NCBI RefSeq assembly: GCF_001651865.1
Contig: NZ_LPUX01000053.1
Coordinates: forward strand, 310,001 to 374,000
From: Sinorhizobium glycinis
Lineage (GTDB): Bacteria; Pseudomonadota; Alphaproteobacteria; Rhizobiales; Rhizobiaceae
Direction: 5' to 3'
Length of the DNA: 64,000 bases
The notes under the pieces were generated by a model. That model was not told the DNA's origin and did no database searches. It saw only the letters and a program-made list of their open reading frames with translations. How positions within the stretch are numbered: position 1 is the first letter of the stretch; the number at the start of each line of letters is the position of its first letter. Positions 7,128 to 62,866 of this stretch are shown in pieces. The position numbers were made by a program, and so were the translations under genes.

Positions 7128-7288
7128 GGGTCCCCCGACACCACGACGACTGGTGAAACGATTCGCACAAGTTAGCCCGGAATGCCAGCGGAGACATCCG
7201 CTTGAACATCCCCTTCCTCGCAACCGCAGGTTTTTGCCGTGGACACGAATATGCATAAGGGCAGAAGAGCCGTAATCTCTTCATCGAA

Positions 7289-7306
7289 CTGTCGCAGAAC
7301 TGTCAT
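7289..7306 (+). promoter_or_regulatory. Pho box upstream of phoX
   Basis: CTGTCGC-AGAA-CTGTCAT: two 7-bp repeats separated by four bases, the spacing and sequence of a PhoB-binding Pho box. It lies 74 bp before the phoX start. Only one repeat deviates from the consensus half-site CTGTCAT. Predicts induction by phosphate starvation. Confidence 0.85.
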
Positions 7307-7380
7307 CAGCTAGCTGATAGAGCGACGATGGACGCCAACCACCAACGGCGCTTCTATCGTCCTCAAAGGGGAGAATGACC

Positions 7381-47796: not shown

Positions 47797-49224
47797 ATGA
47801 TAACCGAACGAGGAACCCAGTTCTATATTGGCGGGGAGTGGCAAGAACACGCGGACGCACCAAGTCTGCCCGTCGTTGATCCCGCCTCGGAACGGATTAT
47901 TGGGCGTATCGCCGCCGGAGACGCAAACCACGTCGATCTTGCAGTTGCGGCAGCGCGCAAGGCCTTCCCTGCCTTCTCTCAATCATCTGTGTCCGAGAGG
48001 CTCGAGCTGCTCGGCAGGGTGCATGCGCTACTGAAGGAGAGAGCGGAATTATTCGCGGAGACTCTCGTCATGGAGATGGGCGCAGCGATCAGCTTCGCGC
48101 GTGCCTCGCAGGTTTTCTTCGCTGCCGAGCACGTTCGCATCCAGATGGAGGTGCTTCAGAACTACCCGTTCCTGACGATAAATGGGCACACCGCAACGGC
48201 CAAGGAACCGATCGGCGTTTGTGCTTTGATCACCCCGTGGAACTGGCCACTCTACCAGATCACCGCCAAGCTTGCCCCAGCGATCGCGGGCGGTTGCACC
48301 GTCGTTCTCAAACCCAGTGAGCTGTCCCCCTACAGCGCCTTGCTCTTCGCCCAACTGATGCACGACGCCGGTACTCCGCCAGGAGTGTTCAACCTGGTCA
48401 ATGGCACCGGAGAGAGTGTTGGTGCAGCTCTCTCAAGCCATCCCGATGTCGACATGATCTCAATCACCGGCTCGACGCGCGCGGGGGTACTCGTCGCGCA
48501 GGCGGCGGCCCCGACGGTCAAGCGAGTGGTCCAGGAACTTGGCGGCAAGTCCCCCAATATTCTGCTCGATGATGCTGATTTCGCCGAGGCGGTGCCAAAG
48601 GGCGTCCTTGCCGGCATGCGCAATGTCGGCCAGTCATGCAGCGCCCCGACGCGCATGCTCGTACCCGCCCATCGGCTCGCCGAGGTCGAGCGTCTGGCCA
48701 GCAAAACCGCGCTTGCCATCCGTGTCGGCGATCCGAAGGATCCGGCGACCACCATGGGGCCCATCGCCAATCGCGCTCAGTATGAGCGGGTGCAGGCCAT
48801 GATCCGGGTGGGAATCGACGAAGGCGCGAAGCTCCTGTGCGGCGGACTGGGACGCCCAGCAGGTCTCGATCGAGGCTTCTTCACGCAGCCGACGATTTTT
48901 TCCGAGGTTCGGCCAGAGATGCGCGTCGCTCGCGAGGAAATCTTCGGGCCGGTCCTGGCGATCATGCCGTACCGGGACGAAGAAGAGGCAATCGCGATCG
49001 CCAATGACACGGTTTACGGACTGGGAGCCCACGTCCAGTCCTCGGATCCCGAGCGGGCACGGCGGGTCGCCTCCCGGATCCGCGCCGGGCAGGTTCATAT
49101 CAACTATCCGGCATGGGACGGGGCGGCCACGTTTGGTGGCTACAAACGGTCAGGCAATGGTCGCGAATATGGCGTTCACGGGCTCGAGGAGTATCTCGAG
49201 ACGAAGGCCATCCTCGGTTACTGA
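47797..49224 (+). CDS. aldehyde dehydrogenase
   Basis: 475 residues, canonical ALDH: Asn149 in TPWNWP, Glu247 in ELGG and Cys281 in GQSCSAP are all present. Similar to betaine-aldehyde and gamma-aminobutyraldehyde-type enzymes; the substrate is not determined. A 205-bp gap after the Lrp gene suggests its own promoter. The last 7 bases overlap the end of the convergent LysR gene. Confidence 0.88.
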   Translation: MITERGTQFYIGGEWQEHADAPSLPVVDPASERIIGRIAAGDANHVDLAVAAARKAFPAFSQSSVSERLELLGRVHALLKERAELFAETLVMEMGAAISFARASQVFFAAEHVRIQMEVLQNYPFLTINGHTATAKEPIGVCALITPWNWPLYQITAKLAPAIAGGCTVVLKPSELSPYSALLFAQLMHDAGTPPGVFNLVNGTGESVGAALSSHPDVDMISITGSTRAGVLVAQAAAPTVKRVVQELGGKSPNILLDDADFAEAVPKGVLAGMRNVGQSCSAPTRMLVPAHRLAEVERLASKTALAIRVGDPKDPATTMGPIANRAQYERVQAMIRVGIDEGAKLLCGGLGRPAGLDRGFFTQPTIFSEVRPEMRVAREEIFGPVLAIMPYRDEEEAIAIANDTVYGLGAHVQSSDPERARRVASRIRAGQVHINYPAWDGAATFGGYKRSGNGREYGVHGLEEYLETKAILGY

Positions 49225-50147
49225 CGAGGAGACCCCGCGCTAAGGGCTTGCCAGGGCGGCGGCTTCAGCGCCTGTCGAAGCATCGTCAGGAAGGCCGCAG
49301 TCCGGGCGCTTCGCCCGTGACGCGAACCGAGCATCGCGACAATGTCGGCCGGTGGGAGCTTCCAGTTGGGCAGCACCTGCCGCAGCCGTCCGTCAGCGAG
49401 ATCTTCTGCCACGTTCCACTCCGAACGGATCATGATGCCCTGACCGGCAAGCGCCCACTCCCGGATGACGGCACCATCGTTGCTCGACATGACCGGATTG
49501 ACGCGCACCGTCGCAATCTCCTGCCGCGGCCCCTTGAAACGCCACAGCGTCACGTCCTCCTCGTTCTCGCGCACGGCAAGACAGCGATGTTGAGCAAGAT
49601 CGACAGGCGCTGAAATGGGCGGTGCCGAGTCGAGGTACCTCGGACTTGCGCAGAGTATTCGAGGGTTCGGCGCTAATGTCGTAACGACCTGGTCCAGATG
49701 CCCCGGCGCCCCGATGTGAACAACGACATCATAGCTTTCGACGAGCAGAGCCGCCGGATGGTCGGACAGCTGCAGCGTAGCGGTCGCGCCGCCGTGCTCT
49801 CGTGCGAACGCTTCCACGACCGGGGCCACATAGAGCCGTCCAAACCCGTGCGGTGCGGCGACCCTGAGGTGTCCGCGAACCGCACCCCTGCGATCAGCTA
49901 AGGCTTCAGCAAGCGAATCGATGGCCTCGCTGACGATAACGCTGTGAGAAGCGACCAGCGAGCCCTCTTCCGTAAGCCGCAGCCGCCGTCCGGACCTGTC
50001 GATCAGCCGCACCCCGACTTTCTCCTCCAGCGCACGCAGCCGCTGTGTCACCGCCGGAGGCGTCACGTTCAGCTTTCTCGCGCTTTCCGCGAGAGATTTC
50101 GAGTCTGTCAGCACCGAAAAGAAGGCAAGATCGTCGGACGTCAACAT
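49218..50147 (-). CDS. LysR-family transcriptional regulator
   Basis: 309 residues. The HTH is LTSDDLAFFSVLTDSKSLAE with VTPPAVTQRLRALEEKVGVRL, and a substrate-binding domain follows (RGHLRVAAPHGFGRLYVAPV). It is divergent from the aldolase-like gene at 50239, the usual LysR arrangement, and so likely controls the aldolase-RidA-oxidase unit. The start at 50147 fits the conserved N-terminus. A 7-bp inverted pair (ATTAATG at 50146, CATTAAT at 50179) lies in the intergenic region but is weak evidence for an operator. Confidence 0.88.
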   Translation of the reverse strand: MLTSDDLAFFSVLTDSKSLAESARKLNVTPPAVTQRLRALEEKVGVRLIDRSGRRLRLTEEGSLVASHSVIVSEAIDSLAEALADRRGAVRGHLRVAAPHGFGRLYVAPVVEAFAREHGGATATLQLSDHPAALLVESYDVVVHIGAPGHLDQVVTTLAPNPRILCASPRYLDSAPPISAPVDLAQHRCLAVRENEEDVTLWRFKGPRQEIATVRVNPVMSSNDGAVIREWALAGQGIMIRSEWNVAEDLADGRLRQVLPNWKLPPADIVAMLGSRHGRSARTAAFLTMLRQALKPPPWQALSAGSPRQ

Positions 50148-50238
50148 TAATGAGAACCTGAATCGAACATTCACTTGTCATTAATTGTCATCTTTATGAT
50201 TTGACCGCAAGCTGAAATCCCGAATTGGAGATCAGATC

Positions 50239-51417
50239 ATGGTCCTAGCGACGATCGACCCGACCACCCGGCTGGCCGCCTCGACCAGCCTTGAGGACCT
50301 GGAAACACCCTGTTTGGTCCTGGACGCCGACCGAATGGACAGGAATGTTCAGCGGCTCAGGAGCCGACTTGACGCCATGGGAGTGTCGCTCCGGCCCCAT
50401 TTGAAGACCGCTAAGTCGATCGAAGTGGCACGGCAGGTGATGAGCTCGCCGGAGGGACCGGCGACCGTCTCTACCCTGAAGGAAGCTGAACAGTTCGCAG
50501 CGGCAGGCGTCCGGGACATAATCTATGCGGTCGGCATCGCCCCAGCCAAGCTCGCGCGTGTCGCGGAACTGCGGGCGAGCGGCGTCGATCTCGTAGTCAC
50601 TCTGGATACCGTTCAGCAGGCAGAAGCGGTGGCCGAGGTGTCTCGGTGGACCGGGACGCGCATCCCGGCCATGATCGAGATCGATTGCGACGGCCATCGC
50701 TCCGGTGTGCGACCCACTGATCAGGCGCAGCTGCTGGAAATCGGCCAGGCGCTGACGGCAGGTGCCGAGCTGCGTGGCGTTCTCACCCATGCCGGCGACA
50801 GCTACAAGGGCGGAGGCGTCGAGGCGCTGCGGCTCTACGCGGAGACGGAACGATTGGCAGTCGTGGAGTCCGCGCGCATTCTGCGGACCGCGGGGCTGCC
50901 GTGCCCGATTGTCAGCGTCGGCTCGACACCGACGGCCCATCACGCGACGGATCTCGCTGGAGTGACGGAAGTCCGCGCGGGCGTGTTCGTCTTCTTCGAT
51001 CTGGTAATGGCTGGGCTCGGTGTTTGCCAAATCGACGACATCGCGCTGAGCGTGCTCGCGACCGTCATCGGACACCAACGCGAGAAAGGCTGGATCATAA
51101 CCGACGGCGGATGGATGTCGCTGTCGCGGGACCGTGGCACTGGCAAGCAGGCCGTCGACCAGGGCTATGGTCTGGTATGTGACGTGGATGGCACGCCGTA
51201 TCAAGACGTCATCGTTGCCGACGCGAACCAGGAACATGGAATTATAGCGGTACGCCCCGGATCGAATGTACGACTCCCGGACCTGGCGGTCGGAGACCGG
51301 GTGCGGATCCTGCCGAACCACGCCTGCGCGACTGCTGCGCAGCACGAAACCTATCACGTGGTCCGCGGCCGCTCGCACGCTGTCGAGACCTGCTGGACCC
51401 GCTTCGGAGGCTGGTGA
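50239..51417 (+). CDS. D-threonine aldolase / D-serine dehydratase (DSD1) family enzyme
   Basis: 392 residues, fold-type III PLP enzyme. Lys56 in RPHLKTAK binds PLP, a TIM barrel follows, and the C-terminal domain has the metal-binding pair His361 and Cys363 (NHACATA) expected for the zinc site. The family includes D-serine dehydratase, D-threonine aldolase, D-threo-3-hydroxyaspartate dehydratase and beta-hydroxyaspartate aldolase; sequence alone does not choose between them. Its stop overlaps the ridA start. Together with RidA and an FAD oxidase it suggests a D-3-hydroxy-amino-acid substrate. Confidence 0.85.
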   Translation: MVLATIDPTTRLAASTSLEDLETPCLVLDADRMDRNVQRLRSRLDAMGVSLRPHLKTAKSIEVARQVMSSPEGPATVSTLKEAEQFAAAGVRDIIYAVGIAPAKLARVAELRASGVDLVVTLDTVQQAEAVAEVSRWTGTRIPAMIEIDCDGHRSGVRPTDQAQLLEIGQALTAGAELRGVLTHAGDSYKGGGVEALRLYAETERLAVVESARILRTAGLPCPIVSVGSTPTAHHATDLAGVTEVRAGVFVFFDLVMAGLGVCQIDDIALSVLATVIGHQREKGWIITDGGWMSLSRDRGTGKQAVDQGYGLVCDVDGTPYQDVIVADANQEHGIIAVRPGSNVRLPDLAVGDRVRILPNHACATAAQHETYHVVRGRSHAVETCWTRFGGW

Positions 51418-51842
51418 TGCCCAAATCCCTGACTGTGAATACCGATCGAGTACCAAGCCCGGCGGGCCACTACTCACAAGCGAAGCTCGTCGGTCAGCAC
51501 CTCTACATTTCGGGCCAGCTACCGATACGACCGGGTGGAGAGGCCCTGGCGGACGACAGCTTCGAGACCCAGGCGGCGCAGGCCCTCGATAACTTACTGG
51601 CGATTCTGGAAGCCGCAGGCGGAACCCCGGCCGATCTCGTGAGGGTAACCGCCTACATCGTCGACGTGGCGAATTGGCCTCGCTTCAACCAGGTTTATGT
51701 GGCGCGACTAGCGGATTCCCGCCCGGCTCGCACCGTCGTTCCGGTACCGGAACTTCACTACGGCTACCTCGTGGAAGTCGATGCAATAGCCGTCATTGCC
51801 TCCGATGCTCCTGCCACAGGGGCAGGAAACAGTGCCGAATAG
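51417..51842 (+). CDS. RidA-family enamine/imine deaminase
   Basis: 141 residues. The catalytic Arg105 of RidA is present (SRPARTVVPV), with the Glu120 region LVEVDAIAV. RidA hydrolyses 2-aminoacrylate and related imines released by PLP dehydratases. The start ATG shares a base with the aldolase stop and follows CGGAGG, so it is made together with the PLP enzyme, as expected if that enzyme produces an enamine. Confidence 0.9.
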   Translation: MPKSLTVNTDRVPSPAGHYSQAKLVGQHLYISGQLPIRPGGEALADDSFETQAAQALDNLLAILEAAGGTPADLVRVTAYIVDVANWPRFNQVYVARLADSRPARTVVPVPELHYGYLVEVDAIAVIASDAPATGAGNSAE

Positions 51843-51871
51843 ATCGGCCGCCAGAGCTCAGGTCAGCCCCC

Positions 51872-53194
51872 ATGTCTCCAATTGTCAAACGCATCCAGAA
51901 CGATCAAGAGCTTCCCGCCAAGGCGGATGTCGTCGTCATCGGCGGCGGCATTGTTGGTGCAACGGCGGCATTCCTTCTCGCCGAGCGAGGACTGTCCGTC
52001 GCCCTGGTCGAAAAAGGCCATGTCGGAGGCGAGCAGTCGAGCCGCAACTGGGGCTGGTGCCGGCGGCAAAACCGGGATGAGCGCGAACTGCCGCTCTCAG
52101 GCGTCGCTTTGCAAGTCTGGGATGAGTTTGCGGCGAAGATCGGTGAGGACGTCGGCTTCCGCCGATGCGGCCTGCTCTACGCTACGGATGATCCCCGGCA
52201 GCTTGCGGAATGGGAAGCATGGCGTGATACGGCGCGCCCGTTCGACGTCAATACGAAGATGCTGAGCGCCAAGGAAGCGGCTGCCGCTATTCCGGCGAAA
52301 GGCCGCCGATGGCTGGGCGGAGTCCATTCGATCGATGACGGCAAGGCCGAGCCTGCCATCGCCGCGCCGACGATCGCGAACGGCGCTCGCAGATTTGGGG
52401 CGACGATCCATCAGGAGTGCGCGGCGCGAGGCCTCGATCTGGTCAATGGAGCGGTGGCTGGGGTGATCACCGAAAAGGGGATCATCCGGACACAAGCCGT
52501 TCTCTGCGCCGGCGGTGCCTGGACGTCCATGTTCTGTCGACAGTACGGAGTTCTGTTTCCGCAGGCGAGCGTGCGCCAGACAGCGCTTCGTACGCGACCT
52601 ACAACGGATCTGGGCGAAGCGATCTACACGCCGGAGTGTGCGTTGACCCGCCGGTTGGATGGCAGCTACACGCTTGCGATCAGCGGCAGGGCTACACTGG
52701 ATATCACCCCACAAGGCATTCGCTACGCCCGCTGGTTTATGCCGATGTTCCTGGCACGTCTGAAAGCGGTGCAAATAGGCATCGGCGAGTCCTTCTTTCA
52801 TGGTCCGGAGGCATTCGCTAGCTGGAATGGCGACACGACGTCGCCTTTCGAACGGATGCGCGTTCTCGACCCCGCGCCGAGCCGTCGCACGATTGCGACT
52901 ATTTTGAAGCGGGTCACGGAGCAGTTCCCTGCGATGGCAGGCATCGAAATCGCCGACAGCTGGGGAGCCTATGTGGATTGCACGCCGGACGCGGTGCCGG
53001 TCATCTCGCCGGCCGATGGCGTGAAGGGCCTTTACCTGGCCGCGGGCGGTTCCGGCCACGGCTTCGGCCTTGGCCCGGGCATCGGCCGTCTGGCGGCCGA
53101 CCTGGTTGCCAACGATCAACCTTGTGTCGACCCCAGCCCCTTCCGCCTGTCGCGTTTCGTCGATGGTTCGAAAGTCAAAGTCGGCGCAATCTGA
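51872..53194 (+). CDS. FAD-dependent D-amino-acid oxidase/dehydrogenase family protein (DadA-like)
   Basis: 440 residues from the ATG at 51872. The FAD motif is DVVVIGGGIVGATAAFLLAE, with a DAO-family core and a C-terminal FAD loop LYLAAGGSGHGFGLGPGIG. The block SSRNWGWCRRQNRDERELPL is typical of a rhizobial group of uncharacterised amine oxidoreductases. It probably oxidises a D-amino acid or N-substituted amino acid to the imine, which RidA next door could hydrolyse. It is 29 bp after ridA. Confidence 0.85.
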   Translation: MSPIVKRIQNDQELPAKADVVVIGGGIVGATAAFLLAERGLSVALVEKGHVGGEQSSRNWGWCRRQNRDERELPLSGVALQVWDEFAAKIGEDVGFRRCGLLYATDDPRQLAEWEAWRDTARPFDVNTKMLSAKEAAAAIPAKGRRWLGGVHSIDDGKAEPAIAAPTIANGARRFGATIHQECAARGLDLVNGAVAGVITEKGIIRTQAVLCAGGAWTSMFCRQYGVLFPQASVRQTALRTRPTTDLGEAIYTPECALTRRLDGSYTLAISGRATLDITPQGIRYARWFMPMFLARLKAVQIGIGESFFHGPEAFASWNGDTTSPFERMRVLDPAPSRRTIATILKRVTEQFPAMAGIEIADSWGAYVDCTPDAVPVISPADGVKGLYLAAGGSGHGFGLGPGIGRLAADLVANDQPCVDPSPFRLSRFVDGSKVKVGAI

Positions 53195-53323
53195 TTGTGA
53201 AGGTTAGATCAGGACTAAGCGGCTAGTGCGACGCGCAGAGGGAAGCTGGCTGATTGGATCTGCATCCGTCATCTAACGACCACGCAGAAATCGCTTTCAC
53301 TCAGGTAAAAAATGGAGAACCAG

Positions 53324-53670
53324 ATGTCACTACTGAAAACCATCGACCCGAATCCCTCGTTTGAGCCGAAGCATAGAACTGCCGAGCCGGATCGCCTCAT
53401 CGCAGGCAGCCCCGCTTTCAAGACCTGGTTGCAGGACACCGCCAAGGAGGGCAGAGTCAATACCGGCGTTTTCGAGGCGACGCCGGGCGAGACGCACTCC
53501 ATCAAGGGCGAAACCTTTGAGTTCACGTCCATGGTGTGATCGAATTGACCGAGAAGGGTAAGGAGCCGGTCATTTATCGCGCGGGCGACAGCTTCGTCAT
53601 GAAACCCGGCTATGTCGGAGTCTGGAAGACAATCGAGACAGTGCGGAAAATCTTCGTCACAGTCACCTGA
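53324..53670 (+). pseudogene. small cupin (DUF861-like), copy 1, broken by a 7-bp deletion
   Basis: The ATG at 53324 has a GGAG site and reads MSLLKTIDPNPSFEPKH through KGETFEFTSMV, then stops at 53539. The next frame continues GVIELTEKGKEPVIYRAGDS to VRKIFVTVT and a stop at 53670. Compared with the inverted second copy, 8 bases instead of 15 separate GAGTTC from GGTGTG, so 7 bases are lost. The intact relative is at 59397-59750. Function unknown; the family is often beside amino-acid catabolic genes. Confidence 0.85.
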
Positions 53671-53947
53671 TCATTCGAGCGAGCGATGCTGTTTCGAGGT
53701 ACATCGTCTCCTGATTTCAGGGCGGGAATGGGGCGATCCGGCACGCAAGGCCTTTCGATCGGCTCCATCCCGAAATTGGATGGGCGGTTTATCCGCCCAT
53801 ACCGTCTTCCAAACCGGCTCGCGCTTGCAGCGGAAGCCCCTTCAAAGAAGGGCTCGCGCACCGCTGTCGTCGCGGGTACAGCCTGAAACTTCAATATTTC
53901 ACCCGGTATCGCGACAACCCGCCGAGGTGAGCTTAGAGACCAACGAA

Positions 53948-54799
53948 ATGGATCAACCTATGCAAACGGAAACGGTCACTCTCGCGCCTTTCGAGGCGCA
54001 CCATCTGGACGGTGCACTGGCGCTGTCGCGTGCAGCGGGCTGGGCGCACAGGAGAGAAGACTGGAAAATGATTTGGTCGATAAGCGAGGGACGCGTTGCC
54101 CTCGCGGGTGACCGTGTGGTGGGCACGGCGCTCATGACTCCCTTCGGCAACACCTGTTCAGCAATCAACATGATTATTGTCGATGAAAGCCAGCGCGGCC
54201 GTGGGCTGGGAAGACAATTGACCAGCGCCGTGCTCGAGCTCGCCGGGGATCGGGAATGCCGTTTGACGGCGACGAGCGACGGCTTACCTCTTTACGAGAA
54301 GCTCGGCTTCGTTGCGACGCATCAAGTCGTACGCCATCAGGGTGTTGTTGGTCGCGTCGATACACCTGAAAATGTCGGGTGGATCGGGCCCGACGACGCC
54401 CTGCCGGCAATCAAAGCGCTCGATCGTGCGGCTTTCGACGCCGATCGCGACGCGCTCCACGATGCGCTGGCGAAGGAGGGGCCGTTTGCCGTCGTCCGGA
54501 ACGGTGACAATATCGTCGCCTTCGCGGCCACGCGGTCTTTCGGGATCGGCGAAGTCGTCGGGCCGGTAGTGGCAGAGAACGCCGAACGGGCGAGGGATTT
54601 GATCGCCTTCATCCTCTCCGGTAAGGAAGGCCGTTTCGTGCGCATCGACATCCCTGAACAGAGCGGCCTTTCCTCATTGCTCGAAGGTTGGGGGCTCCCT
54701 CACGAGGGCGGAGTTGTTGCGATGGCTCGAGGTGCTACAGCCGGGTCGCAAACGCCAAAGGTTCGGACTTTCGTCTTGGCCAGCCAGGCTCTCGGCTGA
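53948..54799 (+). CDS. GNAT-family N-acetyltransferase, two-domain type
   Basis: 283 residues. The N-terminal GNAT domain has the acetyl-CoA loop ESQRGRGLGRQL and LPLYEKLGF. The second half (VGWIGPDDALPAIKALDRAA onward) is a second, degenerate GNAT-like domain of the YitH/Acetyltransf_18 kind. Substrate unknown. The ATG at 53948 is assumed; another lies at 53960. It is enclosed by two inverted cupin pseudogene copies and sits on the plus strand in a mainly minus-strand neighbourhood. Confidence 0.82.
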   Translation: MDQPMQTETVTLAPFEAHHLDGALALSRAAGWAHRREDWKMIWSISEGRVALAGDRVVGTALMTPFGNTCSAINMIIVDESQRGRGLGRQLTSAVLELAGDRECRLTATSDGLPLYEKLGFVATHQVVRHQGVVGRVDTPENVGWIGPDDALPAIKALDRAAFDADRDALHDALAKEGPFAVVRNGDNIVAFAATRSFGIGEVVGPVVAENAERARDLIAFILSGKEGRFVRIDIPEQSGLSSLLEGWGLPHEGGVVAMARGATAGSQTPKVRTFVLASQALG

Positions 54800-54979
54800 C
54801 CTGAATATCTCAAGGGCATACTGCTGGAAGCACGAGCTGGGTTTAGCAGACGCTGGGACGAAATCCGATCAGCCCTTTTTCGGGCATTGCCGACCGGCAG
54901 ACCTCCCCTGCCAGGTCGCTCCGTTCCCGCTTTAAAATAGGAGGTAGGGTGAGTTGGAACGGTCTCTTCGGTGCAACGG

Positions 54980-55332
54980 TTAAGTGACGGTGACGTAGAT
55001 TTTTCGTACCGTCTCGATCGTTTTCCAGACCCCGACATAGCCGGGTTTCATGACGAAGCTGTCGCCCGCGCGATAGATGACCGGCTCCTCACCCTTCTCT
55101 GTCAATTCGACCACTCCCTGCAGGATATGGCAGAACTCAAAGGTTTCGCCCTTGATGGAGTGCGTCTCGCCGGGAGTGGCTCCCAGACGCCGGTATTCAT
55201 CTTACCCTCTTTGTCGCTATCCTGCGCCCAAGTTTTGAAGACGGGTGCACCCGCGATCAGGCGATCCGGCGCGGGGGTCGCGTGCTTCGGTTCAAACGAT
55301 GGATCCAGGTCGATCGATTTAAGTAGTGACAT
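54980..55332 (-). pseudogene. small cupin (DUF861-like), copy 2, broken by a 1-bp deletion
   Basis: Reads MSLLKSIDLDPSFEPKH to MNTGVWE, where one G is missing (expected GAG-GCC-ACT, present GAG-CCACT, near 55172). After restoring that base the frame runs ETHSIKGETFEFCHILQGVV to VRKIYVTVT and the stop at 54980. It is an inverted duplicate of copy 1; the similarity includes about 60 bp of upstream leader (to about 55392). The lesion differs from that in copy 1, so the copies decayed independently. Confidence 0.88.
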
Positions 55333-55459
55333 CTAGTTCTCCATTTTAACCTGAGTGAAAGCAAATCGTCGTCGTTAGACAAGATGGATGCGAGTCGCCT
55401 CCGACCCCTTAAGTTGTGAATAACGGTAGGAGGACGGAGCGGTCGGAATCGTCGGGTGC

Positions 55460-56977
55460 CTACCAGCTTGCGGCGATGTATTTCGTTTCGAGATATTCGA
55501 GCATGCCGTGATGGCTTCCCTCGCGGCCGAGGCCGCTCTGCTTCATGCCGCCGAACGGTGCGGCAGCATCGGAGACGACGCCTCGGTTGATTCCGACCAT
55601 GCCACTTTCCAGCCGTCCGGCGACCGCAAGCGCGCGTTTGAGGTCACTGCTGAACACATAGGACACCAGCCCGTATTCGGTGTCGTTGGCCATCTGGACG
55701 ACCTCGTCCTCGGTTTCAAACGGAATGACTGGCGCAACCGGCCCGAAGATTTCTTCGCCAAGTACCTCGGCATCGCGAGAAACGTCTGCCAGTACGGTAG
55801 GCGGATAGTAGAAGCCGTCCCCGTTCAACCGGCTGCCGCCGGTAACCAATCGGGCTCCCTTGGCAACAGCGTCGTCAACCAGGCGCTCCACCTTGGCGAC
55901 CGCGGCCTCGGTGATCATTGGCCCGAGTTGCGTGTCCGGCGCCAGTCCTGGTCCGACCTTGAGCGCGGCCATCTCTTCCGCAAACCGGCGCGTGAAGTCC
56001 GCCAGAATCCCCTTCTGCACATAGAAGCGGTTCGCGGCAGTGCATGCTTCGCCGCCGTTGCGCATTTTGGCAACCATTGCTCCAGCGACAGCCGTCTCCA
56101 AGTCGGCATCGTCGAATACAATGAAGGGCGCATTGCCGCCGAGTTCCATGGAACAACTGACAACCTGGTCCGCAGCCTCGCGCAGCAGTGTCCGGCCGAC
56201 GCCTGTCGAGCCGGTAAACGACAGCTTCCGTACCCGCTTGTCATGCAGCATGGCGCTGACCACGGGGCCGGCCTTCCTCGTTGTCACGATGTTGACCACT
56301 CCGGCCGGAACGCCGGCCTGCCGCATAATTTCGCCGATCGCCAGCGCCGTAAGCGGGGTCTCCGCTGCGGGCTTCAGGATACACGTGCAGCCCGCGGCCA
56401 GTGCGGGCGCCATCTTTCGGGTCGCCATTGCTGCCGGGAAGTTCCAAGGGGTCACCAACACGGCGATACCAATCGGCTCATGGTTGACGATGATCTGATT
56501 GGCGCCGGAAGGTGCAGGTCCGAATTCGCCCGGCGCCCGTACAGCTTCTTCCGCATACCAGCGGAAAAACTCCGCCGCGTAGGCGACCTCCGACCTGGCG
56601 TCGGCAAGTGCCTTGCCGTTTTCGACGGTGATCAATTGTGCCAACCATTCGGCCTGCTCGAGCACAAGGTGAAAACACTTCATCAAAACGTCCGAGCGAC
56701 GCCGCGGCGAGGTCGCCTTCCAAACCGCAGCGGCCTTTTCCGCTGCGTCGACCGCGGATATTCCATCGCGGATATCACCGTCGGAAACTGTGGCGATCAC
56801 ATCTCCGGTCGAGGGGTCGACCACTTCAAAGGTGCGGTCTTCTTTTGCAGAAACCCATTCGCCGCCGATGAACAGTTGCGTAGGAGCATCGCGGACTACG
56901 GCAGCTGAGGCGGGAGAGACAAGCGGGGTTGTTTTTTGCGCGGGAGTTGGTTTCACGTTCAGCACCTTCGCTACCAA
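55460..56977 (-). CDS. NAD(P)-dependent succinate-semialdehyde dehydrogenase family protein
   Basis: 505 residues, GabD-type ALDH. TPWNFPAAMATRK, MELGGNAPFIVFDDAD and the catalytic cysteine in GEACTAANR are intact. The first 30 residues are a variable leader and the start (TTG at 56977) is uncertain. It probably oxidises a C4 semialdehyde produced by the class III aminotransferase of the same gene set. Upstream are three ATTGGT repeats. The final minus-strand gene of the island cluster. Confidence 0.88.
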   Translation of the reverse strand: MVAKVLNVKPTPAQKTTPLVSPASAAVVRDAPTQLFIGGEWVSAKEDRTFEVVDPSTGDVIATVSDGDIRDGISAVDAAEKAAAVWKATSPRRRSDVLMKCFHLVLEQAEWLAQLITVENGKALADARSEVAYAAEFFRWYAEEAVRAPGEFGPAPSGANQIIVNHEPIGIAVLVTPWNFPAAMATRKMAPALAAGCTCILKPAAETPLTALAIGEIMRQAGVPAGVVNIVTTRKAGPVVSAMLHDKRVRKLSFTGSTGVGRTLLREAADQVVSCSMELGGNAPFIVFDDADLETAVAGAMVAKMRNGGEACTAANRFYVQKGILADFTRRFAEEMAALKVGPGLAPDTQLGPMITEAAVAKVERLVDDAVAKGARLVTGGSRLNGDGFYYPPTVLADVSRDAEVLGEEIFGPVAPVIPFETEDEVVQMANDTEYGLVSYVFSSDLKRALAVAGRLESGMVGINRGVVSDAAAPFGGMKQSGLGREGSHHGMLEYLETKYIAASW

Positions 56978-57004
56978 TCAGGTTGGACACGCGATCAATA
57001 TAAG

Positions 57005-57043
57005 ATTGGTTTTGCAATTGGTGTCAATATAGATCAAATTGGT
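57005..57043. promoter_or_regulatory. three ATTGGT repeats upstream of the semialdehyde dehydrogenase
   Basis: Direct repeats ATTGGT at 57005, 57017 and 57038 in an AT-rich stretch 28-66 bp before the gene start. Spacings are 12 and 21 bp, near one and two helical turns, which fits cooperative regulator binding. No regulator is assigned. Confidence 0.4.
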
Positions 57044-57151
57044 TGCGGTAATAATCTGCGAAGGCTCATGAACGCGGCTGCGGACTTTTGACCTTTGAGG
57101 CGGCAGTCTGTGGGTGTCCGAACATGAGCGTTGCGCAAAGACACGGCCGCC

Positions 57152-58147
57152 TCAGCACTCGAACATCTTGCCGGCGTTGAGTTCCTCGGCGCGCTGAAAG
57201 GCCAACGTGGCAATTGCGGTGTCCTGAACACCTGTACCGGTGAGATCGGCTATTGTGATGTCTGCATCGCGAATACGTCCGACCTTGCCGCCGGCAATGA
57301 TTTGCCCCAGTTCCGGAAAATCCGTGTCGCTCGCAACCAGCCTACCCTCTATGGCATGATGAAGTTCCCCCAGCCTCCGCGTCTGTTTCAGGCTGTCCGC
57401 CACATAAAGGTCTGCGCGCGCAATCGCGGCCGGATCGATCTCGTTCTTATGTTCGGCGTCGGAGCCCATGGCTGTCACGTGCTGCCCGGGTTCTAGCCAG
57501 GAGGCATGAAGAATGGGGCGGTCTGCGGGTGTCGTTGTCACAATGATATGGGAACCCGATACTGCCTCCTTTGGATCGGCGAACGCAGTAACCGGCACGC
57601 TGTGCTCGAACTTCAACTGTTCGACGAGCGCCTCCGCCTTGGAGTGATCACGCGCCCAAATACGGACTTCTTGGATTGGTCTCACCAGAGTGAGCGCTTG
57701 GAGTTGCAGTCTCGCCTGAACACCCGCGCCAAAGATGGTTGCGATCGATGCATCGTGTCGCGACAGATGTTTTGCCGCGACTGCGCCGGCGGCTGCTGTC
57801 CTGATGTCGGTCAGGTAGCCATTATCCAGAAGAAGCGCCTGAATCAGTCCGGTTTTACTTGAGAGCAAAACCATCATCCCGTTTGTACTCGGAAGGCCGA
57901 GCTTCGGATTGTCAAAGAAACCGGGGCTGATTTTGATCGCGAAGCCGGTCAAGCCCGGAATATAGGCGGTTTTCACATCGACTTCGCCTCTGCTCTCAGG
58001 CACATCCAGACGCAGAATGGGCGGCATCTGCACCGCACTATCGACCGCCAGCGCGCGAAACGCGCCTTCCGTGCATTTAACCGCCTCGACGTCGAGCGGA
58101 ATGATCTGTCTGAGCTCAGGCTCGGTAAGTATTCTAATAATAGGCAT
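57152..58147 (-). CDS. eutC: ornithine cyclodeaminase-family reductase, EutC-like
   Basis: 331 residues. The N-terminal part (PPILRLDVPESRGEVDVKTA) and NAD fold (IFGAGVQARLQLQAL) with HVTAMGSDAEHKNE and DLTGTGVQDTAIATL match ectoine-utilisation EutC. EutC and its relative BhcD are thought to reduce iminosuccinate to aspartate. It lies 16 bp after eutB with a GAGGTGG site. The other ectoine genes (eutA, eutD, eutE) are not in the window, so the symbol marks the family. Confidence 0.82.
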   Translation of the reverse strand: MPIIRILTEPELRQIIPLDVEAVKCTEGAFRALAVDSAVQMPPILRLDVPESRGEVDVKTAYIPGLTGFAIKISPGFFDNPKLGLPSTNGMMVLLSSKTGLIQALLLDNGYLTDIRTAAAGAVAAKHLSRHDASIATIFGAGVQARLQLQALTLVRPIQEVRIWARDHSKAEALVEQLKFEHSVPVTAFADPKEAVSGSHIIVTTTPADRPILHASWLEPGQHVTAMGSDAEHKNEIDPAAIARADLYVADSLKQTRRLGELHHAIEGRLVASDTDFPELGQIIAGGKVGRIRDADITIADLTGTGVQDTAIATLAFQRAEELNAGKMFEC

Positions 58148-58163
58148 CAGTCCACCTCAGTTT

Positions 58164-59129
58164 CTATATAAGTCCGTTGATGACTTTTCGATGCAATGTC
58201 ATGTCGATATTCTGACCCGACAGTATGACTGCTACCGGACCTTTAAGATGAGCCAGCTTAGCGGAAAGCAGCGCTGCGATACCAACTGCGCCAGCGCCTT
58301 CGACGACCTCCCGCTCTTTTTCGTAAGCGTGCCGCACACCGGCAGCTATCTCGCGTTCATTGACAAGAACGATATCGTCGAGAAGCGCTTTGCACATCGG
58401 GAAAGTCAAAGCGTTGCCCAACCCGATTCCACCGCCGAGCGAGTCGGCCAGGCTGCGATACTCCTTCACTTGCACCGGCTGGCCCGCGTCGATGCTAGCC
58501 TTCATGGCTGCCCCCCGATCCATGGTGACGCCGATGACCGTGGCCTGGGGTCGCTTGGCCTTTACGGCTGCCGCGACGCCTGCGGCCAACCCACCTCCAG
58601 AAAGTGGAACGAGAACAGTCGCGACCTCGGGCATCTCCTCGACGATTTCAAGCCCGACCGTTCCCTGGCCGGCGATAACGTGGGGATGATCAAAAGGCGG
58701 GATCATGCTGAGCCCATCTTCTGCAACCAGCCGCTCGACTTCTGCTTGTGCGTCGTCCTGCGAAGAGCCGACTGTCCGTACTGTTGCGCCCAGCCGTCGG
58801 ATTTCCGAGACCTTGTTCTCCGGCACCAGACGCGACATGCAAATGGTCGCGCTAGAACCGACTACCCGGGCAGCATAGGACAGTGCCCTTCCGTGATTGC
58901 CGGTTGAGGCTGCGATGACGCCGCGATCGCGCTCCGATTGGCTGAGTTGAAGAACTGCATTGGTTGCACCCCGGAGCTTAAAGCTACCGGTCAATTGGCG
59001 ATGCTCGAGCTTCAAGCTGACCTGCGCTCCGATGCGTTCGGAAAGCGATGTCGATATCGCTAGAGGAGTGCGGACAACGTGATTGGCGATCCGCCCACGT
59101 GCCTGCTCGATGAGGTGTTGGCTAATCAT
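58164..59129 (-). CDS. eutB: threonine dehydratase-like PLP enzyme, EutB-like
   Basis: 321 residues from the ATG at 59129, fold-type II PLP enzyme. Lys51 (GSFKLRGA) binds PLP, STGNHGRALSYAA is the substrate loop and SGGGLAAG binds phosphate. EutB and the relative BhcB dehydrate 3-hydroxyaspartate to iminosuccinate; serine/threonine dehydratase is the wider family. Pairing with EutC gives a two-step conversion of 3-hydroxyaspartate to aspartate. A longer start (TTG at 59153) is possible. Confidence 0.82.
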   Translation of the reverse strand: MISQHLIEQARGRIANHVVRTPLAISTSLSERIGAQVSLKLEHRQLTGSFKLRGATNAVLQLSQSERDRGVIAASTGNHGRALSYAARVVGSSATICMSRLVPENKVSEIRRLGATVRTVGSSQDDAQAEVERLVAEDGLSMIPPFDHPHVIAGQGTVGLEIVEEMPEVATVLVPLSGGGLAAGVAAAVKAKRPQATVIGVTMDRGAAMKASIDAGQPVQVKEYRSLADSLGGGIGLGNALTFPMCKALLDDIVLVNEREIAAGVRHAYEKEREVVEGAGAVGIAALLSAKLAHLKGPVAVILSGQNIDMTLHRKVINGLI

Positions 59130-59396
59130 TGCGTTATATTTCACCTGCTTCAAAACCGGTCATGATCGGCCAAGTGGTCGCGTACCGGGCTCCCTCATCG
59201 GAGGTGCTCATGCAGCAACTCGGCGCGGCGGCCCAGTTCATCCTACCGCACCGGGGTTGGTGGCAGCGTCGAACAGCCAGTGGGACGTCAATCGGAAGCC
59301 TGCTCTAGCAACAAGGCTCAGGTCGTTGCGCGCGCCGCCTTTCACAAAGATGGCGGTCGCGCGCACTTCACGGATTTGCGACGGATGCCGGCGCGC

Positions 59397-59750
59397 TCAG
59401 TCGCGCGCGACCCAAAGTTTGCGTGTGGTCTCGATAACCCGCCATGTGCCGACGAAGCCGGGATGCATCACAAAAGCGTCACCAGCGCTGATCCTGCGGG
59501 GTTCGCCTCCATCCTCGGTGAGTTCGGAGACTCCGGAAAGGATGACGCAGAATTCAAAGGTCTCGCCCTTGATCGAACGGTAGGCGCCTGGAGTTGCCTC
59601 CCATACGCCCGTCCGCATCTTTCCGTCTGCGGTCGCGGCAATGTCCCAGCTAAGAAACTGCGGCTGTCCGTCGACCAGCCGCTCGGGAGGCGGGGCGCCC
59701 TTGCGCGGCGTCGGGAGATTGTTCTGGTCGACGAAGGTTAGTTTTGACAT
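59397..59750 (-). CDS. small cupin domain protein (intact copy)
   Basis: 117 residues of the same family as the two broken cupins. A single cupin barrel is visible: GVWEATPGAYRSIKGETFEF, SELTEDGGEPRRISAGDAFV, MHPGFVGTWRVIETTRKLWV. The usual two-histidine metal motif is not evident in the first cupin box, so metal binding is doubtful. It lies 23 bp before the frameshifted permease and may belong to the transporter operon. The next 267 bp towards eutB hold nothing recognisable. Function unknown. Confidence 0.82.
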   Translation of the reverse strand: MSKLTFVDQNNLPTPRKGAPPPERLVDGQPQFLSWDIAATADGKMRTGVWEATPGAYRSIKGETFEFCVILSGVSELTEDGGEPRRISAGDAFVMHPGFVGTWRVIETTRKLWVARD

Positions 59751-59773
59751 AGGTCACCTTTCTACTGTGACGT

Positions 59774-60455
59774 TTATTTTCCGAAAGACAGTTTTCTCTC
59801 GATCAGCTTTAGAGAAGTTAAGCTGATCACGTTCATCATCAGGTAGAACGCCGATGTGATGATGAAGATGTCCATGATGGCGAAGGTTTCGCTCATCAAC
59901 CGTTTGGCATAGCCTGTGATCTCGAGGACCGTGATCGTCGATGCAAGGCTCGATTCCTTGACGATGATCGCAACTTCGCTGCTATAGGCAGGCAAGGCTT
60001 GCCTAACCGCCAGCGGAAACTTGACGTGGCGAAAAGTGGACCACACCGAAAGGCCGCAGGCTTGCGAAGCCTCGATTAGACCCCGCGGAAGGGAAAGGAG
60101 TGCGGTCCGGAAGATTTCCGCCGTATAGGCACCGGTGTTGAGCACGACTGGCCAGGGTCGCCGCATGCAGGCTGTCGCCGACAATCCACCAGATCACCGG
60201 GTTGCTGCGAACGGCACCTAGCTGGCCTAGTCCGTAATAGATCACGAAGACCTGCACCAGCATGGGCGTGCCGCGGAAGATGGCGCAGTAGATATCCGCG
60301 CTCCTGCTCAATATCCGGTTCCTGGATGTGCGGATGACAGCCAATGCAATGCCGAACGGCAATCCCAGAGCGACGCCGAAGACGCTGATCAGCAGGGTTA
60401 TCTTGGCGCCCACCAGAAGGAACGGAACCGCATATGTGACAAGGTCTAGTTCCAT
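59774..60455 (-). pseudogene. amino-acid ABC transporter permease (HisM-type), frameshifted
   Basis: From the ATG at 60455 the frame gives the N-terminal helices (VPFLLVGAKITLLISVFGVA) to IVGDSLHAATLA. The sequence then has one extra base between GCC and GTG (near 60146-60152). The shifted frame continues VLNTGAYTAEIFRTALLSLP with the EAA loop EASQACGLSVWSTFRHVKFP to LIERKLSFGK. As written, no full permease can be made. A sequencing error is the alternative. Confidence 0.85.
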
Positions 60456-60456
60456 C

Positions 60457-61170
60457 TTATCCCCGACTGAAGCCACGGTTGAAGAACCGCTCCGTATGAC
60501 TGAAGAGCGTCTGGCTGACTGCCGTCAGCGCAAAAAACATCCCTGCAGCGGCGCAGTAGAACAAAAGCGGAGAGCGAGTGATGCCGGCGGCGATCGCCGC
60601 GGAGCGCATCAATTCCTGCATACCCACGACCGACACCAGCGAGGTGTCCTTGATGGTCATCTGCCAAACATTGTTGAGGCCGCCGAGGGCCAGTCGCAGA
60701 GCGATAGGCAGAGTGACGCGGAAGAAGGTGACGTGGGTCGGCAGGGCAAGGGATTTTGCCGCTTCCAGCAAGCCCACCGGCACGGCGTCGAGCGCGCCGC
60801 GGAACACTTCGATCGAATAGGCACATGATATTGCCGCGATCGCGACAACGCCGATGACGAAGGGATAAGCGTCGTCGGCGCTATTTTGGTATCCGAACGC
60901 GGTTGCCAGCCGCTGAACCCACTCGATCGAGCCGAAGAACAAGAGGTAGATGACGAGCAGTCCGGGAACGCCGCGCACAAGAATGCTGTAGCCGTCCACC
61001 GCTTGCGAGATTATGGGAAGGCGTCGCCACCGCAAAAGGGCCAGCGGCACCGCCACGATGATCCCGGCGAGCATGCCGAGCAGGCCGACCGCCAGTGTCA
61101 CCGTCGCGCCGCGAAGAAGGGCAAATCCCCACCCCCGCTCAACCAGTAGAACCCATAGGTCTAAAGACAT
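60457..61170 (-). CDS. amino-acid ABC transporter permease (HisQ-type)
   Basis: 237 residues with about five membrane helices and an intact EAA loop (EAAKSLALPTHVTFFRVTLP) that contacts the ATPase. It belongs to the polar amino-acid/opine uptake permeases, which act as HisQ-HisM pairs. Its partner, beginning one base after this stop, is frameshifted, so transport may be lost unless this subunit pairs with itself. Confidence 0.9.
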   Translation of the reverse strand: MSLDLWVLLVERGWGFALLRGATVTLAVGLLGMLAGIIVAVPLALLRWRRLPIISQAVDGYSILVRGVPGLLVIYLLFFGSIEWVQRLATAFGYQNSADDAYPFVIGVVAIAAISCAYSIEVFRGALDAVPVGLLEAAKSLALPTHVTFFRVTLPIALRLALGGLNNVWQMTIKDTSLVSVVGMQELMRSAAIAAGITRSPLLFYCAAAGMFFALTAVSQTLFSHTERFFNRGFSRG

Positions 61171-61230
61171 CGGACATATCTCCCGTTACGTCGTCGCGAC
61201 TTCGGCCGCGACGACGTGTGGATCTCAGCC

Positions 61231-62046
61231 TCACTTCGTGCAGGGAATGGTGTAATCGTCCTTGAACCAATGAAGGCTGGCATTCTTCACCTTGCCTTCG
61301 GTGACCATTTTGCAGAGCGCCGCATCCAGTTTTGCCTTGAGCTCGGCATTGCCCTTGCGCATGCCGACGCCCATGCCGTGACCGAGCGACGCTGGATCGT
61401 CCATCGCCATGATCTTGACGTTCACTCGGGTGAACCCCGCCCCGTCCGGAGTGGCGAGGAAATCCGCCCAGGTCGGGTTGTCGCCGAAGGCGGCATCAAG
61501 GCGGCCTGCGGCGAGGTCAGCCGTCTGCTGCGTCGTTGCGTCGTAGGTTTTCAGATCTGCGCCGGGAACATGTTTTTGGATGAACCTGGCGTATGTGGTT
61601 CCGGTGACCACGCCGAGGCTCTTGCCGTCGAGCGCCTTTACGATCTCATCCAGGCTCTTGAGGCCGGCGATCGGAGAGTCCTTCGCCACCACGAAATAGA
61701 GGGGCGTGGTGGCATACGGAATGGAGTAGTCGATTTTCTTCTGGCGTTCCGCCGTGATGCCCAAACCGGAGATGATGACGTCAAACCGGTCGCTATCCAT
61801 GGAAGGCACGAGCGTGCTGAAGGATTGGACAACGAACTTGCACTTCAACTTGAGCTCAGCGCAGATGCCGTTCGCTATGTCGGCATCGAAGCCGGTAACG
61901 TTGCCGTCAGCGTCGGCCATGCTGAACAGCGGTGCGTCTCCTTCAGTGCCGATCCGCAGTACGCCTTCTTCGGCTTGCGATGCCGCGGCTGAGGCCAGGA
62001 AGAGACCGGATGCGAGAACTGAGCGAAGCTTCGTGATTGTCGACAT
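61231..62046 (-). CDS. periplasmic amino-acid-binding protein
   Basis: 271 residues of solute-binding family 3. The signal peptide (LASGLFLASAAASQA) is followed by mature lobes with GFDADIANGICAELKLKCKF and the signature GLGITAERQKKIDYSIPY. Similar in style to HisJ, ArgT and opine-binding proteins. A cysteine pair near the ligand strand (ICAELKLKC) may form a disulfide. The ligand is presumably an amino acid handled by the neighbouring enzymes. Confidence 0.9.
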   Translation of the reverse strand: MSTITKLRSVLASGLFLASAAASQAEEGVLRIGTEGDAPLFSMADADGNVTGFDADIANGICAELKLKCKFVVQSFSTLVPSMDSDRFDVIISGLGITAERQKKIDYSIPYATTPLYFVVAKDSPIAGLKSLDEIVKALDGKSLGVVTGTTYARFIQKHVPGADLKTYDATTQQTADLAAGRLDAAFGDNPTWADFLATPDGAGFTRVNVKIMAMDDPASLGHGMGVGMRKGNAELKAKLDAALCKMVTEGKVKNASLHWFKDDYTIPCTK

Positions 62047-62080
62047 TGGAGTTACCCCTCTTTTCGTTTGAAAGCGGCCG

Positions 62081-62866
62081 TCAGGCGGCCAGTGGCATCA
62101 CGCTGGAAAGGAATCGCGCCACAGCGTCAGACGCTGGATTGCGAAGCAATTCTTCCGGCGTACCGTCCTGCTCAATTTCACCTTTGTGCAGGAAGATCAT
62201 TCGGTTCGAGACGTCTCGCGCGAACCGCATTTCGTGGGTGACGAGAAGGATGGTGGCTCCCTCGTCGGCAAGCCCTCTGATGACCCTCAGAACCTCCCCG
62301 ACAAGCTCCGGATCAAGCGCGGAGGTGGGTTCGTCGAAAAGCATGATCTTCGGGCTCATCGCGAGCACGCGGGCGATCGCGACACGCTGTTGCTGGCCGC
62401 CGGAGAGTTGATGGGGATAGCGGTCGCGAAAATCGGCCATGCCGACCTTCGCAAGTGCCGAGAGCGCGATCTCCTTCGCGTCGCGCTTGTTCTTTCCGAG
62501 CACGTGGAGCAACGCCAGGGTCACATTGCCAAGCGCGGTCTGGTGCGGCCACAGATTGAAGTTCTGGAACACCATGCCGATGCGACGCCGGAAGTTCCTG
62601 ATGTGGTGAGCACTGTGGATCTCGGTCTTGCCATGATGGTTCACGGCTGCCGAAACGGCGTCACCCATGACCTCGATTTCACCGGAGGTCGGCGTCTCAA
62701 GGAAATTCACGCAGCGTAGCGCCGTGCTCTTGCCCGAACCGGACGATCCAACCAGCGAAATGACCTCGCCCTCGGTCATTCGAAAGCTGACGCCGTTCAA
62801 TACCTTCGTCGGTCCAAAGGATTTGCAGAGTTCACGGACTTTCAGCACGTTTGCCTTCATGACCAA
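62081..62866 (-). CDS. amino-acid ABC transporter ATP-binding protein
   Basis: About 261 residues. Walker A is GSSGSGKST, the Q-loop FQNFNLWPH, the ABC signature LSGGQQQR and Walker B IMLFDEPTSALD. It powers the HisQ/M-type importer encoded downstream. A GAGG site fits a TTG start at 62866 better than the ATG at 62860. It starts 10 bp after the aminotransferase stop, so the two are co-transcribed. Confidence 0.92.
   Translation of the reverse strand: MVMKANVLKVRELCKSFGPTKVLNGVSFRMTEGEVISLVGSSGSGKSTALRCVNFLETPTSGEIEVMGDAVSAAVNHHGKTEIHSAHHIRNFRRRIGMVFQNFNLWPHQTALGNVTLALLHVLGKNKRDAKEIALSALAKVGMADFRDRYPHQLSGGQQQRVAIARVLAMSPKIMLFDEPTSALDPELVGEVLRVIRGLADEGATILLVTHEMRFARDVSNRMIFLHKGEIEQDGTPEELLRNPASDAVARFLSSVMPLAA

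Follow-up and report, generated by a model that had tools for sequence, protein, structure and literature searches.

Gene clusters for the utilization of ectoine and 5-hydroxyectoine contain eutB and eutC together with transporter genes, and the ectoine hydrolase EutD/DoeA is described as the key enzyme of ectoine catabolism in one study (PMC5924519). The other described systems to which the locus reported here can be compared are the Cupin_3/EutQ-like cupins (PF05899), gene-order changes that arise by homologous recombination between inverted paralogues, and invertible switches, whose repeats are near-identical and maintained by exchange. The locus is located in a stretch of 64,000 nucleotides (the window, C53:310001-374000) of a 6.04-Mb draft genome that consists of 68 contigs and belongs to a root-nodule bacterium, placed by its relatives in the Sinorhizobium/Ensifer group. 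None of the titles found in a literature search dealt with this locus. Two Cupin_3 genes are found in opposite orientation on either side of a GNAT acetyltransferase gene, and each of them carries a separate frame lesion. The best explanation of the locus as a whole is likely to be an old paralogue pair combined with relaxed selection and rare rearrangement, in which two diverged EutQ-like Cupin_3 paralogues oppose each other around the GNAT gene inside a eutB/eutC-type catabolic cluster.

The gene cluster and its inverted arms

The minus strand of the cluster encodes an aldehyde dehydrogenase (ALDH) of the succinate-semialdehyde type upstream of the second cupin copy (55460..56977; PF00171, and TIGR01780 with 560.6 bits, below the cutoff of 646), a EutC-like cyclodeaminase (57152..58147; TIGR02992, 554.6 bits, above cutoff), a EutB-like dehydratase (58164..59153; NF005680 with 526 bits and TIGR02991 with 519.2 bits, both above cutoff), a third cupin termed cup3 (59397..59750), two ABC-transporter permeases, a binding protein and an ATPase. 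The second of the permease genes (59774..60476, minus strand) exceeds its counterparts in five relatives by 1 nt, and its frame is broken near position 60149. On the plus strand, the first cupin copy is preceded by genes for a BhcC-like aldolase (with a score below the cutoff of the model), a RidA-type protein and an FAD oxidase. EutB and EutC matches that exceed the NCBIfam cutoffs and amino-acid type ABC-transporter genes are features shared with the described ectoine/5-hydroxyectoine utilization clusters. In contrast to these clusters, no EutD match above cutoff was detected in the genome, the best match reaching 131.8 of the required 613 bits on another contig, and the locus is therefore referred to as a eutB/eutC-type cluster and not as an ectoine cluster.

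Comparison of the two cupin regions by blastn delineated two inverted arms, each composed of a leader, a cupin copy and a 3' flank, at positions 53262..53842 (arm 1, plus strand) and 54812..55391 (arm 2, minus strand). The arms share 75.7% identity over 593 alignment columns (E value 4.6e-111), which is far above chance, their longest exact match is 44 nt, and the open reading frame portions of the two copies are only approximately 82% identical. The only gene enclosed by the arms is the intact GNAT gene (53948..54799, plus strand; Pfam PF18014 and PF00583), and the inner end of arm 2 at 54812 is located 12 nt from the GNAT stop codon. Two inverted cupin pseudogenes with different lesions thus flank the GNAT gene, as stated in the initial annotation of this DNA. 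Its description of an inverted duplication of about 400 bp including the leader was correct with regard to the inverted similarity, but each arm extends over approximately 580 bp and the arms represent an old paralogue pair.

A hairpin is located between copy 1 and the GNAT gene (53780..53800, plus strand). The structure GGGCGG-loop-CCGCCC is likewise present in R. ruizarguesonis and in nearly all aligned Sinorhizobium spacers; bases are altered yet still fold in E. aridi, genome G009 and Neorhizobium, the hairpin is weak in R. pisi and R. vallis, and it is deleted in CCBAU 45436. It is a possible intercistronic RNA element, and an Rfam scan of the window yielded no matches at gathering scores.

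Lesions and history of the cupin copies

Copy 1 (53324..53670, plus strand) has a length of 347 nt and copy 2 (54980..55332, minus strand) a length of 353 nt, as compared to 354 nt for intact orthologues, which verified the previously proposed loss of 7 bp and 1 bp, respectively. Alignment to orthologues places the lesion of copy 2 near 55180 and that of copy 1 near 53522, where a substitution adjoins the 7-nt gap. As judged from these broken frames and the open, constrained frames of the orthologues, both window copies would be classified as pseudogenes, which sets them apart from the Cupin_3/EutQ-like cupins that they otherwise resemble. PF05899 was matched with 67-83 bits (cutoff 23.5) by copies 1 and 2 of USDA 205, copy 2 of NGR234, one Rhizobium orthologue and cup3, and the broken fragments from the window gave no Pfam match at 0.001. 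The best solved chain by sequence for the cupin is 3bcw, an uncharacterized protein. The constant position of a cupin before the GNAT gene in Rhizobium loci suggests that both gene products may share a pathway step.

A total of 33 genomes of the genus, including that of the window, were searched. Copy 1 DNA has some match in 30 of them and a GNAT orthologue with 88-100% identity was identified in 12 of them, again counting the window's genome. Fifteen genomes were compared at the locus, namely 13 from the genus set (the 12 with GNAT and genome G008) together with S. fredii CCBAU 45436 and GR64, which were taken from a plasmid collection; S. americanum CCGM7, which has a full-length match, is not part of this comparison. 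G008 contains ALDH and copy 2 without the orthologous GNAT gene and copy 1, and in S. shofinae the genes are divided over two contigs, one with ALDH and copy 2 and the other with GNAT and copy 1. Copy 1 is intact in ten of the 15 genomes, broken in four (the window's genome, IC4062, G009 and E. aridi) and absent from G008, and the corresponding numbers for copy 2 are 12 genomes with an intact gene, one with a broken gene (the window's genome) and two that lack it (S. sojae and S. saheli). The c1-GNAT-c2 architecture is conserved in several species, and all genomes except that of the window (14 of 15) retain at least one intact copy.

The lesions of the four broken copy 1 genes all differ from each other. 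Twelve other genomes retain the site at which copy 1 of the window is damaged (E. aridi has lost it by deletion, and G008 has no copy 1), and none of them carries the lesion; the same holds for the site of the copy 2 lesion, which likewise exists in 12 other genomes. These private and differing lesions indicate that the copies were inactivated separately, as had been proposed, and the search for lesions shared by all relatives, which would point to the opposite, returned none at either site. Copy 1 has 0/1/4 and copy 2 has 3/2/8 substitutions private to the window at the first, second and third codon positions, respectively; they are still rich in third positions, which suits a recent loss. 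Mean dN/dS among intact genes is 0.054 for copy 1 (45 pairs, 10 genes) and 0.088 for copy 2 (66 pairs, 12 genes), and both copies are under purifying selection in the relatives.

A tree was built from 42 cupin sequences, including two partial ones, and its bootstrap values were not fully settled. The 14 copy 1 rows group in it with nine Rhizobium and Neorhizobium cupins encoded ahead of GNAT (99/99). A separate clade is formed by the copy 2 rows (98/96), beside which the Chelativorans cupin is weakly placed (91/57). Mean dS is 0.71 between the two types, 0.23 within copy 1 and 0.17 within copy 2. Identity between copies 1 and 2 across 11 genomes is 0.825 within and 0.824 between genomes, a comparison which revealed no sign of recent gene conversion or exchange between the arms. 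On this sequence evidence the two copies are old paralogues, or one of them is a transferred relative. A recent duplication was considered and rejected, as the copies fall into separate clades and show no recent exchange.

The third copy was described in the initial annotation as more distant and intact, and cup3 indeed encodes an intact Cupin_3 protein. It was further proposed that selection acted against the duplicated cupin or that this third copy replaced it. Both copies are lost in the window's genome where cup3 is intact, and copy 1 is broken in three other genomes as well, which is in line with this proposal. However, cup3 accompanies intact versions of both copies in five genomes (USDA 205, NGR234, S. 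kostiense, BR816 and GR64), its protein identity to the copy 2 type is only 54%, which marks it as an older paralogue and not as a recent substitute, and both copies are maintained by purifying selection elsewhere. We therefore regard selection against the cupin, or its replacement by cup3, as very improbable. A further open cupin relative is encoded on contig C64 (56% identity to cup3 and 75% to the copy 2 type), and copies of similar divergence are found in other genomes of the genus. A backup may therefore be present, but it is likewise older than the loss of copies 1 and 2.

Instead of a rejected duplicate, the old paralogue pair would have provided redundancy that buffered the cupin function, so that single copies could be lost repeatedly in different species. 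Each of the two copies is lost more than once where the other one remained, and they would be nearly interchangeable.

Possible decay beyond the cupins

The permease of the same cluster is broken too, and thus the cupin does not seem to be singled out for loss; this also speaks against selection directed at the duplicated cupin. The extent of frame damage was analyzed with a strict test of 46 gene families that are full in at least three of six genomes. In the window's genome, 44 families are full and two are split (copy 1 and the permease). The test merged copy 2 with copy 1, so that the copy 2 lesion counts as an additional third, and the merging likewise hides the broken copy 1 of genome G026. 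Within the cluster (49218-62866), 12 of 14 families are full and two are split in the window's genome, and outside of it all 32 are full. Full frames were recorded for 46 of 46 families in G007 and 45 of 45 in G021, and the remaining genomes gave 33 full and one with a stop (G006), 27 full and one partial (G026), and 28 full and one split (S. kostiense, G011). The split frame of S. kostiense is located in the ABC ATPase gene of the cluster.

One gene dropped out of the strict family filter as it was displaced by a shadow ORF. This gene (C53:385291-386386) lies outside the window at a distance of 11-12 kb. Its frame is full in NGR234, USDA 205 and BR816 and is probably broken near its start in the window's genome. 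With copy 2 counted and this gene left aside, Fisher's test of the cluster against the outside gave p = 0.028; with the gene included, 3 of 15 cluster genes compare to 1 of 33 others (p ~0.08 by hand arithmetic), both tests being post hoc. A loose scan, in which splits were counted per ORF at 80% identity or more, detected a larger number of splits in all genomes and in a chromosomal control, with the following numbers for NGR234 ORFs: 5 of 52 split in the window's genome (four more partial), 1 of 36 in G006, 4 of 50 in G021, 2 of 35 in G026 and 2 of 30 in S. kostiense. ORFs of G006 and G021 were split in the window's genome in 6 of 34 and 3 of 41 cases, respectively, and in the chromosomal control 3 of 86 NGR234 ORFs were split there (eight more partial). 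These counts include artefacts, such as one NGR234 ORF that is split in three genomes and ORFs antisense to real genes. The three extra candidate lesions consist of this ORF, the gene at C53:385291-386386 and one ORF that is full only in NGR234. Another ORF, from USDA 205, was found split in the window's genome at C53:378012. A genome-wide excess of frame errors was not supported, but a local excess is possible.

One alternative is that the lesions are sequencing or assembly errors and that the strain itself carries both cupins and the permease with intact frames. The analysis covered a draft assembly of 68 contigs, copy 2 and the permease are each off by a single base, the window's genome alone among the 15 has both copies broken, and the contig that carries the permease has a further candidate lesion approximately 16 kb away from it. 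Against this, the copy 1 lesion comprises 7 nt and an adjoining substitution, which is atypical of a base-calling error, the completeness of the genome is listed as 99.97%, and the 44 of 46 conserved families that are full argue that the contig is not error-ridden. Taken over all lesions, this alternative is considered unlikely; sequencing error is nevertheless the main rival explanation for the two single-base lesions in copy 2 and the permease.

Regional relaxed selection or local sequence errors fit the data better than selection against the cupin. The loss of both cupins and the permease is most simply explained by relaxed selection, in that selection on the cluster or region would have been relaxed in the window's genome and all three genes would have decayed. 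The 12 remaining cluster families are full in this genome and make a weak case for whole-cluster decay, and the apparent deterioration of the cluster may reflect either decay or sequence error that extends across a somewhat wider stretch.

Orientation of the GNAT gene

The gene order outside of Sinorhizobium was examined in 16 loci with a GNAT orthologue of at least 73% identity, two of which are Rhizobium plasmid matches. ALDH, cupin and GNAT follow each other on one strand in 15 of these loci, with Chelativorans as the exception. ALDH and GNAT are readable on one stretch in 11 Sinorhizobium/Ensifer genomes, and in nine of them GNAT is encoded against ALDH (the window's genome, USDA 205, NGR234, IC4062, S. 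kostiense, BR816, G001, CCBAU 45436 and GR64; four S. fredii records are among them). The two remaining genomes, E. aridi and G009, have GNAT on the ALDH strand. They constitute a clade (98/95) that is separate from the remaining 12 taxa, with E. aridi represented by only 30% of the columns. The outgroup likewise has GNAT and ALDH on one strand, so that at least two rearrangements are needed to derive these arrangements from the Rhizobium order.

In E. aridi and G009, the sequence that separates copy 2 from GNAT is of the copy 2 type up to the inner arm end (54812 in the window), and past this point the GNAT leader is the one found behind copy 1 in the window (53843 on). This junction fits a crossover in the inner part of the arms. 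The second junction expected from a clean inversion of GNAT was not recovered in either genome; downstream of GNAT, the two genomes have in common a flank of approximately 210 nt without a match to either arm, and E. aridi has a truncated and G009 a displaced copy 1. The spacers of four Rhizobium/Neorhizobium loci resemble the copy 1 type (0.61-0.67) more than the copy 2 type (0.51-0.58), and those of E. aridi and G009 resemble the copy 2 type (0.80 and 0.77) more than the copy 1 type (0.61 and 0.59). These similarities favour the c1-GNAT pair as the older adjacency. The 3' flanks of GNAT in five Rhizobium/Neorhizobium loci had no match among the 14 Sinorhizobium loci to which the comparison was filtered, and they were therefore uninformative with regard to the polarity of the downstream junction.

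It had been suggested that the arms could flip the GNAT gene by recombination. Inverted arms, a flipped gene in two relatives and a junction at an arm end are shared with rearrangements between inverted paralogues that occur by homologous recombination, from which the locus differs in that only one junction is recoverable and that no ongoing exchange is seen between the diverged arms. The suggestion is thus borne out to the extent that orientation differs in two of 11 genomes with one junction at the repeat end, but the other junction is lost and there is no sign of a switch. For an invertible switch that flips GNAT within a population, one could point to arms of approximately 580 bp with an exact match of 44 nt and to the different orientation in E. 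aridi and G009. Nevertheless, the nine other readable genomes have the same orientation, GNAT alone is enclosed by the arms, both oppositely oriented genomes lack the second junction, and the repeats are not of the near-identical, exchange-maintained kind, being 76% identical with a within-genome identity not above that between genomes. Such a switch is considered exceedingly improbable, and we read the change in GNAT orientation as a rare rearrangement.

Several loci carry additional gene content. A threonine-dehydratase-like gene is found beside a cupin copy in BR816, G009, G001 and CCBAU 45436, accompanied in G009 and CCBAU 45436 by an isolated piece from the 3' end of the oxidase gene, and G001 and CCBAU 45436 contain an extra broken cupin of the copy 2 type. 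The GNAT orthologue of Rhizobium sp. Pop5 matches in two pieces (6549-7393 of the locus) and is absent from an incomplete gene table.

The Rhizobium and Neorhizobium loci examined have one cupin between ALDH and GNAT on a single strand. The S. fredii group has another type of cupin (c2) behind ALDH, next to which the c1-GNAT pair is found in reversed orientation. The arms would have been involved in rare rearrangements during evolution, among them the change in GNAT orientation between the E. aridi/G009 lineage and the rest, and would not act as a routine invertible switch. A more far-reaching and rather doubtful proposal is that the cupin copies form a recombination node, in which the arms would repeatedly have switched the cupin that precedes GNAT and the threonine-dehydratase-like gene would have moved in or out in four genomes, twice with the oxidase fragment. 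If this were true, GNAT could in the course of evolution come to be expressed from either the ALDH operon or the oxidase operon.

The locus corrects a story of recent duplication, rejection of the duplicate and replacement by a third copy. Its practical use is modest and consists in pointing to a possible failure of a eutB/eutC-type cluster in this strain. It provides an example of inverted paralogues that accompany a local change in gene order, and a small example of how redundancy allows either member of a paralogue pair to be lost in different species.
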